Source of the DNA: Chitinispirillum alkaliphilum
GTDB taxonomy: Bacteria > Fibrobacterota > Chitinivibrionia > Chitinivibrionales > Chitinispirillaceae
Assembly (NCBI GenBank): GCA_001045525.1
Contig: LDWW01000033.1
Coordinates: 1 to 39,787 of the forward strand
Length of the DNA: 39,787 nucleotides
Direction of reading: 5' to 3'
Every line of letters begins with the position of its first letter. The first letter of the stretch is position 1. Below the pieces are notes generated by a model. That model did not search any database. It saw only the letters and a program-made list of their open reading frames with translations, and was not told the origin of the DNA. Below, one piece after another: positions 2,449 to 27,719 of this stretch. Both the position numbers and the translations under genes were made by a program.

Positions 2449-3271
2449 GATGGAAAATGTCTCTTTCAGCTACCAGAACCGTCAGCTTTTCAGCAAGCTC
2501 GACTTATTTATCCCTGAGGGGGGAATAGTCGGTCTTTTAGGGAAAAATGGGGCAGGCAAATCGACGTTGATGAAGATAGCCTGCGGTTTACTTTCTCCTG
2601 TAAGCGGGGAGAGCAGAAGTTTGGGTGTATCCAGTTTTGTCAAATCTCCTTTGGTTCTTCGGGACATTTATTTTCTCCCTGAAATCACCCATATACCCAC
2701 TATGACACCACGGGAATATACACGGCTTTACGCTCCGTTTTACCCCGCTTTTAGCTACGAACAGTTTGAAACACTTCTGAAATCCTATAGTCTTGATGCG
2801 GGCACTATACTAACCCGTATGTCACATGGTCAGAAACGGATCTTTTTTCTCTGTTTCGCTCTTGCCACAAATGTGCGGATACTGATTTTGGATGAGCCGA
2901 CCAATGGTCTGGATATTCCCTCAAAGGGGATATTCAGGACTCAGATAGCAGAATGGATGAGAGCAGATCGTACAGTAATCATTTCAACACATCAGGTGGG
3001 GGATGTGGGTAGTCTGCTTGACAGCATTATTGTTCTTGAGAGTGGTGAGATCATATTTCAGAGAAGCGTTGAGGATATTAAACGCTTCATGGCGTTCAGG
3101 GTTAATGAGCAAGCGGGTGATGAGGGAGAGTTTATCTTTGAGCAAAAAGTGCCCGGCGGATTCGGTGTGGTGCTCAAAAAGCAAGCAGGCCAGGAGAGTC
3201 CTCTTGACATCGAACTGCTCTTTAACGCCATTTTGGAAAACAATCAGAAAGTAAACGACTGTTTCAATTAA
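2402..3271 (+). CDS. ABC transporter ATP-binding protein
   Basis: 289 residues, a single nucleotide-binding domain that would hydrolyse ATP to drive an inner-membrane exporter. Walker A GKNGAGKST is at about residues 47-55, the signature loop appears as MSHGQKR (a variant of LSGGQ), Walker B/D-loop is LILDEPTNGLD, and the switch His is in ISTHQV. The C-terminal ~80 residues are an extension typical of ABC-2-type ATPases of the YtrB/EcsA kind. It is followed after two bases by a membrane protein that is probably its permease. The start at 2402 lacks a clear Shine-Dalgarno; an internal ATG at 2450 (MENVSFSY) begins directly at the conserved domain and is a realistic alternative. The substrate cannot be told. 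Confidence 0.9.
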   Translation: MTTLLETTERSSNVLEMENVSFSYQNRQLFSKLDLFIPEGGIVGLLGKNGAGKSTLMKIACGLLSPVSGESRSLGVSSFVKSPLVLRDIYFLPEITHIPTMTPREYTRLYAPFYPAFSYEQFETLLKSYSLDAGTILTRMSHGQKRIFFLCFALATNVRILILDEPTNGLDIPSKGIFRTQIAEWMRADRTVIISTHQVGDVGSLLDSIIVLESGEIIFQRSVEDIKRFMAFRVNEQAGDEGEFIFEQKVPGGFGVVLKKQAGQESPLDIELLFNAILENNQKVNDCFN

Positions 3272-14119: not shown

Positions 14120-14968
14120 TTATCTAAGCAGAGCAAGAACATTCTGAGGAGTCATATTCGCCTGTGCAAGCATTGCTGTGCCTGATTGGGTCAGGATCTG
14201 ACTTCTGGTAAACGCAGAAGATTCTGCTGCGAAATCAGCATCCCTTATAAGAGATTCCGCTGCGGCCTGATTTGTTTCACTTATTTGCAGGTTGTTGATT
14301 GCGTGTTCAAGGCGGTTAACATAGGCACCTATCGAAGCCCTCTCTTCATTTACCTGGTTGATGGCATTGTCCAGATACCCTATCGCCAGTCTTGCATTAG
14401 CCTGAGTGTTCATCTGGAAATCAGCAGTCAGATTCTCATCAAGCTCTGTTGCTATCATGCTGTTGATTTGAATTGTCATACCATCTGCAAGCGGATTGCT
14501 GCCGGCATCGACCCAGAATGTGCTTCCGTCCCCGCCACCAAATCTCTCGGCGCTGTTGGAGATTATCTCCATGTTATTGTAGTTGGTTACGTTTGCGATA
14601 CGGTCGATTTCATCTCTGAGATGTCTGAACTCCTGATTTGTATAGCCCCGTTCGGTATTGGTGAGTGTATCGTTTGCTGACTGCACGGCCAGCTCTCTCA
14701 TTCTTTGAAGTATATCGGAGATCTCTCCCAGTGCGCCTTCAGCGATTTGAAGCAGTGAGGTGCCGTCGAGGGCATTTCTCTGAGCCTGTTTTGCCCCGCG
14801 TACCTGTGTGCGCAGTCTTTCAGATATGGCAAGTCCGGCTGCATCGTCACTTGCTCTGTTGATTCTCAAACCTGTCGAGAGTTTTTCAAGGCTGCTGCTC
14901 ATTGATTTGTTTGATCTGTTGAGCGCAGAAGTCGCTATCATAGATGATATGTTGTTGTTAATACGCAC
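14120..14968 (-). CDS. fliC: Flagellin 1
   Basis: 282 residues. Flagellin N-domain at 1-140 (RINNNISSMIATSALNRS, then SLEKLSTGLRINRASDDAAG, then RMRELAVQSANDTLTNTER) and C-domain at about 195-282 (AYVNRLEHAINNL, RDADFAAESSAFTRSQILTQ, AMLAQANMTPQNVLALLR). The middle is short, so the filament would consist mostly of D0/D1 with almost no outer domain. It is exported by the flagellar type III system and polymerises into the filament. The start is a GTG at 14968: GGGAGG at 14980-14975 is correctly placed and the product then aligns with flagellin 2; the frame is open to 15016 but without signals. Its leader holds two hairpins and a FliA-type promoter. It is about 13 kb from, and clearly diverged from, the second flagellin gene. 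Confidence 0.95.
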   Translation of the reverse strand: MRINNNISSMIATSALNRSNKSMSSSLEKLSTGLRINRASDDAAGLAISERLRTQVRGAKQAQRNALDGTSLLQIAEGALGEISDILQRMRELAVQSANDTLTNTERGYTNQEFRHLRDEIDRIANVTNYNNMEIISNSAERFGGGDGSTFWVDAGSNPLADGMTIQINSMIATELDENLTADFQMNTQANARLAIGYLDNAINQVNEERASIGAYVNRLEHAINNLQISETNQAAAESLIRDADFAAESSAFTRSQILTQSGTAMLAQANMTPQNVLALLR

Positions 14969-14975
14969 GAAGAAC

Positions 14976-15075
14976 CTCCCTGTTAATAGTGTCGTCAGGG
15001 TGACGTTCCGTGTCACCCCCTACTATTTCTCTTCTTTACAGGGAGTCATAAGAAATTGCCGTTTCTCCTCCCTGT
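14976..15075 (-). promoter_or_regulatory. Flagellin 1 leader with mutually exclusive pairings around the ribosome binding site
   Basis: Reading the minus strand 5' to 3': ACAGGGAG (15075-15068), CTCCCTGT (15045-15038), a separate hairpin GGGTGAC/GTCACCC (15018-14998, 7-base loop), then ACAGGGAG again (14983-14976), which is the Shine-Dalgarno of the GTG start. CTCCCTGT can pair perfectly over 8 bases with either copy. Both ACAGGGAGG copies also resemble the CsrA consensus ACARGGAUG. Confidence 0.5.
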
Positions 15076-15096
15076 GTATAATCTCTCCTAATTCTT

Positions 15097-15123
15097 TTAT
15101 CGGCAGTAGTTGGATAAACTTAA
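15097..15123 (-). promoter_or_regulatory. FliA (sigma-28) type promoter of flagellin 1
   Basis: On the minus strand TTAAGTTT (15123-15116), an 11-base spacer and GCCGATAA (15104-15097). Consensus is TAAAGTTT-N11-GCCGATAA, so the -10 is perfect, the -35 has seven of eight and the spacing is exact. It lies about 130 bases upstream of the flagellin GTG. Confidence 0.8.
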
Positions 15124-15329: not shown

Positions 15330-15794
15330 TTAGCCGGATTTATTTTTTCTCAGTTCGCGAAAGAATGAGCTTAGGAGTTCGCTGCACTCATCAGCCATAA
15401 TTCCGGAGCTTATGGCGGGGAAGTTGCGGTAGGAGGATTCTATCAGGGGGCGATAGGGGAATGTGTCTACTGCTCCCGCTCTGGGGTCGGTTGTTCCGTA
15501 GGTAACAGATTCAATTCTTGATTGAACGATAGCCCCAAGGCACATCAGGCAGGGTTCAAGGGTAACGTAAAGGTTGCAGCCATTGAGTCTCCATGTGGAG
15601 AGTTTTTCTGTGGCAGCGCTGATGGCGACGATTTCGGCATGGGCAGTAATATCACTGAGTTGTTCAACTCTGTTATATCCTCTGCCGATGATTTTTCCGT
15701 TTTTTTCTATCACAGCACCCACAGGAACCTCTAATTCATCAGCTGCTTTTAAAGCTTCCTGATATGCCATGGTCATAAAATAGTAAGGGTTCAT
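15330..15794 (-). CDS. tadA: tRNA-specific adenosine deaminase TadA
   Basis: 154 residues, the usual length. Deaminates A34 to inosine in tRNA-Arg(ACG), allowing it to read CGN codons. The zinc-dependent deaminase motifs are complete: HAE at residues 52-54 (ligand His52, proton shuttle Glu54) and PCLMC at 81-85 (ligands Cys82 and Cys85), with the family block VPVGAVI ahead and YGTTDPRAGAVDTF after. The ATG at 15794 has no clear ribosome binding site; a second ATG seven codons later is possible. It is divergent from ffh with about 100 bases between, which must hold promoters for both. Confidence 0.92.
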   Translation of the reverse strand: MNPYYFMTMAYQEALKAADELEVPVGAVIEKNGKIIGRGYNRVEQLSDITAHAEIVAISAATEKLSTWRLNGCNLYVTLEPCLMCLGAIVQSRIESVTYGTTDPRAGAVDTFPYRPLIESSYRNFPAISSGIMADECSELLSSFFRELRKNKSG

Positions 15795-27644: not shown

Positions 27645-27660
27645 ACGGCAAGGAAGCCGT
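27645..27660 (+). promoter_or_regulatory. Leader hairpin with GGA in the loop, CsrA-like site
   Basis: ACGGC (27645-27649) pairs with GCCGT (27656-27660) and exposes AAGGAA as a six-base loop. A GGA in a hairpin loop is the typical high-affinity CsrA binding form. A second GGA is in the ribosome binding site ACAAGGAGG (27705-27713), as in the CsrA-controlled hag leader of Bacillus. Confidence 0.45.
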
Positions 27661-27719
27661 TTGGGTGTAGCGGTAATATCTCGTACGCAGGGGTATTATC
27701 ATAAACAAGGAGGTTCTCC

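Follow-up and report, generated by a model that had tools for sequence, protein, structure and literature searches.

A FliA-transcribed flagellin leader with CsrA-type sites and a putative bistable Shine-Dalgarno switch in Chitinispirillum alkaliphilum

CsrA is a repressor that limits flagellin production in other bacteria. The layout of a flagellin leader under CsrA-FliW control has been proven for C. jejuni flaA, a FliA-transcribed gene for which FliW acts as the CsrA antagonist; the study (PMC4894983) describes one ANGGA motif in a stem-loop and a second at the Shine-Dalgarno sequence (SD), with compensatory changes in relatives. The hag leader of B. subtilis contains two CsrA sites, BS1 and BS2, the second of which is located at the SD (Yakhnin 2007, cited in PMC8523840 and PMC7652899), and the two citing papers also describe a FliW-CsrA partner switch and a fliW gene adjoining csrA. 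A different arrangement is found in the psl mRNA of P. aeruginosa, where the SD pairs with an anti-SD segment, the site for the CsrA-family protein lies in the enclosed loop, and RsmA stabilizes the sequestered state (Irie 2010, cited in PMC7652899). Alternative RNA structures through which a CsrA-family protein alters access to the SD are also known from P. aeruginosa phzA2 (PMC3933668) and, in PMC7652899, from E. coli ymdA; at both, CsrA/RsmA activates by opening a hairpin.

Here we describe the leader of a flagellin gene of Chitinispirillum alkaliphilum located in a 39,787-nt stretch of DNA (contig LDWW01000033.1, positions 1 to 39,787; hereafter the window). With flaA it shares a FliA-type promoter, a FliW gene in the genome, an ANGGA stem-loop with compensatory changes in relatives, and a second ANGGA at the SD; with hag, the pair of CsrA-type sites and the adjoining fliW and csrA; with psl, a CsrA-type site enclosed between an SD and its potential anti-SD partner. 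Unlike this leader, that of flaA is 45 nt long, and the available portions of PMC4894983 describe no anti-SD segment that has a partner hairpin farther upstream. Likewise, the excerpts of PMC8523840 and PMC7652899 describe no equivalent in hag of the hairpin with an SD duplicate (hairpin 1 below). The psl transcript does not encode flagellin, and the passage on it in PMC7652899 mentions no upstream SD duplicate competing for the anti-SD. In contrast to phzA2 and ymdA, repression is the expected outcome here. CsrA-FliW flagellin leaders are thus already known, and we regard the window's leader as a lineage-specific version of that system, a late FliA-transcribed leader that probably joins a bistable SD switch to translational control by CsrA and FliW. 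Neither this leader nor a switch of this kind was described in the literature searched, which is weak evidence as most subscription journals lay outside the scope of the search. The features of the locus, in the order of transcription, are:

15330 to 15794, minus strand: upstream tadA-like deaminase gene (Pfam deaminase match), marker of the orthologous locus
15098 to 15122, minus strand: FliA (sigma-28)-type promoter TAAGTTT-N11-GCCGATA (motif match; CCGATA in most relatives)
15068 to 15075, minus strand: 5' arm of hairpin 1, ACAGGGAG, a copy of the SD (outer base covaries with the 3' arm)
15051 to 15066, minus strand: inner stem AGAAA/TTTCT of hairpin 1 and conserved ACGGCA apical loop (from orthologue comparison)
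15038 to 15045, minus strand: shared segment CTCCCTGT, either the 3' arm of hairpin 1 or a putative anti-SD (complementary to both partners)
14997 to 15019, minus strand: hairpin 2 with ACGGA in its loop, a CsrA-type site (covarying stem, constant ANGGA loop)
14975 to 14983, minus strand: ACAGGGAGG, the SD and second CsrA-type site (invariant in 14 orthologues)
14120 to 14968, minus strand: flagellin 1, GTG start, 282 aa (Pfam Flagellin_N and Flagellin_C)

The initial annotation of this DNA, made from the sequence alone, had placed three 8-mers in the leader, and all three were recovered on the minus strand: ACAGGGAG at 15075-15068, CTCCCTGT at 15045-15038 and ACAGGGAG again at 14983-14976, the last copy lying at the SD, 7 nt 5' of the GTG at 14968. 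A further hairpin reported between these segments is likewise present at 15019-14997, with the sequence GGGGTGAC-ACGGAAC-GTCACCCT. The annotation had also held that a FliA promoter puts all of these elements in the transcript. The match at 15122-15098, upstream of all three 8-mers, is the sole occurrence of WAARTTT-N11-NCCGATA in the window (0.02 expected) and places the predicted transcription start near 15092-15088, about 15 nt before the first 8-mer, so that all three would be transcribed. The 128-nt leader was shuffled 20,000 times with its dinucleotides preserved; a repeated 8-mer that also had a reverse complement arose in 0.045% of the shuffles, a direct 8-mer repeat in 11% and an inverted one in 6%; the leader as a whole is predicted to fold more stably than its shuffles (z = -3.2).

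Both the SD and hairpin 2 are CsrA-type sites, which had been overlooked earlier, and for this reason CsrA-FliW control is our primary reading of the leader. At the SD, ACAGGGAGG matches the core ACARGGA of the SELEX consensus of CsrA ligands, RUACARGGAUGU (PMC7652899), and the loop of hairpin 2 displays ANGGA. We compared 49 distinct flagellin leaders from the class: the SD has ACANGGAKG in 45 of them, and an ANGGA hairpin with a stem of at least 4 bp occurs in 41, compared with 4.7 expected from shuffles; in 440 kb of the organism's own genome the SD motif precedes only two of 270 roughly predicted genes, both of them the window's flagellins. Hairpin 2 is paired in all 14 orthologues examined, five of its seven pairs showing compensatory changes around a constant ANGGA loop. 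The genome encodes one csrA and one fliW, which adjoin each other downstream of a third flagellin gene and of two genes that, on reading their translations, we take to be flgK and flgL. Both csrA and fliW are present in 33 of 40 genomes of the class, as neighbors among the matches listed. Among PDB entries, the organism's CsrA is most similar to the CsrA chain in its complex with FliW (5dmb), and asparagine 55, the residue changed in the N55D mutant used in PMC6529632, is kept. Bridging of hairpin 2 and the SD by CsrA is very probably the main means of repression: a CsrA dimer bound to the ANGGA loop of hairpin 2 would reach across to ACAGGGAGG and exclude the ribosome, until export of flagellin frees FliW, which would remove CsrA and open translation.

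Hairpin 1 was compared across 14 orthologues from five families. Leaders of this kind, termed type 1, have the order CCGATA, hairpin 1 (NCAGGGAG...ACGGCA...CTCCCTGN), usually AAAGGAGG, hairpin 2 and ACAGGGAGG; the orthologous flagellins that follow them form one clade (tree support 83/68), and tadA lies upstream in 14 loci, including those of the window, L181 and L183. The outer pair of hairpin 1 occurs as A-U, G-C, C-G, U-A and G-U, a variety that shows hairpin 1 to be real. The apical loop ACGGCA (once ACGGTA) is found in 14 of 14 orthologues with hairpin 1, and a search within the leader revealed no conserved partner for it. A covariance model of hairpin 1 gave one match per genome in 11 genomes (E <1e-4), each 5' of the orthologous flagellin; as these genomes were used to build the model, their scores are in part predetermined, though not the finding of a single match in each genome. 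Ahead of other genes, no match with a convincing E-value was obtained in 168 genomes of the phylum, the weak ones being probably due to chance. Weaker or inserted versions of hairpin 1 precede three more orthologues, and in L183, a syntenic orthologue, the hairpin has been lost and the SD ACAGGGAGG kept. Rfam gave no match above the gathering score for the window, and none for the leader at a relaxed threshold or for the other leaders. We consider it doubtful that hairpin 1 with its ACGGCA loop constitutes a new cis-regulatory RNA family of the Fibrobacterota flagellin lineage; such an element would sense one particular factor, be it a ligand, FliW or some other protein, choose between the on and off states via the anti-SD, and provide a second input to CsrA control.

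The shared segment had been described as equally complementary to the two copies and the whole as a translational switch. Equality is true of the window, where the segment can form 8 bp with each; in most relatives 8 bp are possible upstream and 7 bp at the SD. Over the 14 orthologues, the inner 7 nt of the 3' arm give 98 cells, all of them complementary to the SD and 96 to the upstream copy, as two orthologues have each lost one inner pair with the 5' arm while retaining the SD match. The outer base of the 3' arm covaries with its counterpart upstream and not with the SD, to which it is complementary in only 5 of the 14. The covariation proposed as a check thus supports the upstream hairpin well, and the SD pairing is a deduction; that the off helix shows no covariation is explained by inner SD pairs that hardly vary. 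Identity among orthologues is 0.91 in the 5' arm, 0.96 in the 3' arm and 1.0 in the SD, and 0.68 in the arms of hairpin 2.

These observations bear on the alternative that survives best, namely that CsrA-FliW control operates without a switch, hairpin 1 being a 5' stabilizer or a protein-binding hairpin, its likeness to the SD a product of chance, and the pairing with the SD irrelevant in cells. We hold this to be possible, if on the unlikely side. It agrees with an outer pair whose covariation involves the 5' arm but not the SD, with conservation of the ACGGCA loop beyond what a switch requires, and with the loss of hairpin 1 in L183. However, the stem of a plain stabilizer would be expected to show compensated drift of the kind seen in hairpin 2. 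At the inner pairs that vary, hairpin 1 has five one-sided and no compensated changes, versus eight one-sided and 16 compensated in hairpin 2 (Fisher p = 0.011, for sequences that are related), and the match on the SD side is never lost.

The SD itself appears to be fitted to the segment. All 14 type 1 leaders counted have G at position 4, and 30 of 31 other leaders have A, T or C there. When the type 1 SDs were replaced in silico by those of other flagellins, the pairing probability fell from a mean of 0.53 to 0.00-0.01. In 13 of 14 type 1 leaders, the longest exact complement to the leader's own SD spans 6-8 nt, and among 35 other flagellin leaders it never exceeds 5 nt; exact SD complements of 7 nt or more occur in 1% of genes. 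The other flagellin leaders are without an anti-SD segment, and nearly all have SD variants that abolish pairing in silico, so that, as far as sequence comparison can tell, only the type 1 flagellin lineage combines an anti-SD segment with a fitting SD. Since the orthologues represent a single clade, these are counts of sequences and not of events, and the association of segment and SD may go back to one ancestral event.

Constrained ensemble energies, calculated with one parameter set, give on/off gaps of -4.1 to +4.0 kcal/mol in the 14 orthologues, with a median of -0.55; for the window's leader, the off fold is predicted to be favored by 2.0 kcal/mol at equilibrium. Nascent RNA is predicted to form hairpin 1 first (P at least 0.95 in 12 of 14), and the on fold is strongly favored in two relatives, G001, which is the closest (+4.0 kcal/mol), and G002. 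Both predictions would also suit control by CsrA-FliW only. In the L021 orthologue, which has a divergent hairpin, the off helix is unfavorable by 14.8 kcal/mol. Of the switch as originally claimed, the preservation of both complementarities, the similar fold energies and the lineage-specific fit of anti-SD and SD stand, with the SD pairing itself as the conjectural part, and we judge the anti-SD toggle more likely than not to be a real second layer.

We propose a model for this layer whereby CTCCCTG(T) would first form hairpin 1 by pairing with CAGGGAG upstream, so that the SD stays free, and would later re-pair with the identical SD, turning the leader off and placing the CsrA hairpin inside the loop of a long-range helix. 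The SD/anti-SD helix would close the loop that holds this hairpin, an arrangement shared with psl, and CsrA may therefore act together with the off fold; by analogy with RsmA on psl mRNA, CsrA bound in the loop would favor the off fold. Binding of CsrA to the leader, formation of the off helix in cells and the identity of what tips the balance are all matters on which we infer rather than observe. The comparative evidence extends CsrA-FliW flagellin control to the Fibrobacterota, and the leader seems to be a conserved natural example in which direct occlusion of the SD by CsrA is combined with an RNA-structure switch; with a duplicated SD and one shared anti-SD, the two layers should be separable by simple mutations.

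It is improbable that the 5' arm of hairpin 1 is mainly a third CsrA site whose likeness to the SD stems from the common CsrA consensus. In the window ACAGGGAGG is an exact match to the consensus, and GGA is retained in the 5' arm of orthologues. Against this, ACA, which is invariant in the SELEX ligands (PMC7652899), is present at the SD in 14 of 14 orthologues and in the upstream arms of only 3 of 14, the GGA of the 5' arm sits in a stem, and the conserved 3' arm is left unexplained. A leader-peptide attenuator, suggested by a nine-codon frame that does exist at 15049-15023, is hardly credible and was rejected, as the short frame is not conserved, none of the relatives compared has an ATG at that place, and the transcribed strand has no intrinsic terminator, the single match being on the opposite strand.

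Several additional features of flagellin leaders emerged from the comparison. Many of them (L016-L020, L022-L024, L026, L181 and L184) have a perfect SD-like AAAGGAGG or close variant some 70-120 nt before the start codon, the window's version being degenerate (AAAGAAGAG, 15037-15029); judged by its sequence, this element could serve for ribosome standby or as an additional CsrA site. Ten stretches of the organism's own genome match the flagellin N-terminal family, two of which are the window's flagellins. The second of these has the following CsrA-type sites, both identified by sequence:

27645 to 27660, plus strand: flagellin 2 leader hairpin ACGGC-AAGGA-AGCCGT, CsrA-type site
27705 to 27713, plus strand: flagellin 2 SD ACAAGGAGG, CsrA-type site

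This other type of leader contains, besides its GGC-ANGGA-GCC hairpin, a second hairpin (e.g. ATGATAC...GTATCAT) directly 5' of the SD ACAAGGAGG, seen in the window at 27672-27713 (plus strand) and in L004, L028, L032 and L184. In L030 and L031 (family f7), flagellin genes are arranged in tandem, several with the SD in the loop of a 7-bp hairpin (e.g. GACAAACATGGAGGTTTGTT); most also have an ANGGA hairpin farther upstream. The flagellin-like genes L009 and L011 (G000 C6:35351 and C23:36397) have ACAGGGAGG or ACAAGGGAGG before the start, and CsrA control may thereby reach further filament or hook-associated genes. Finally, a flagellin gene at L003:3188-4063 (minus strand) lies directly upstream of fliW (2589-3008) and csrA (2350-2586), and the flagellin gene in this position has a sigma-54-like promoter, TGGCA-N6-TTGCA. 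The leaders of flagellins preceding fliW-csrA (L185-L189) are 91-107 nt long and contain 4-7 GGA motifs, versus 2.8-4.2 expected, some in small hairpins; such a GGA-rich leader may titrate CsrA or mediate autoregulation of the fliW-csrA operon.
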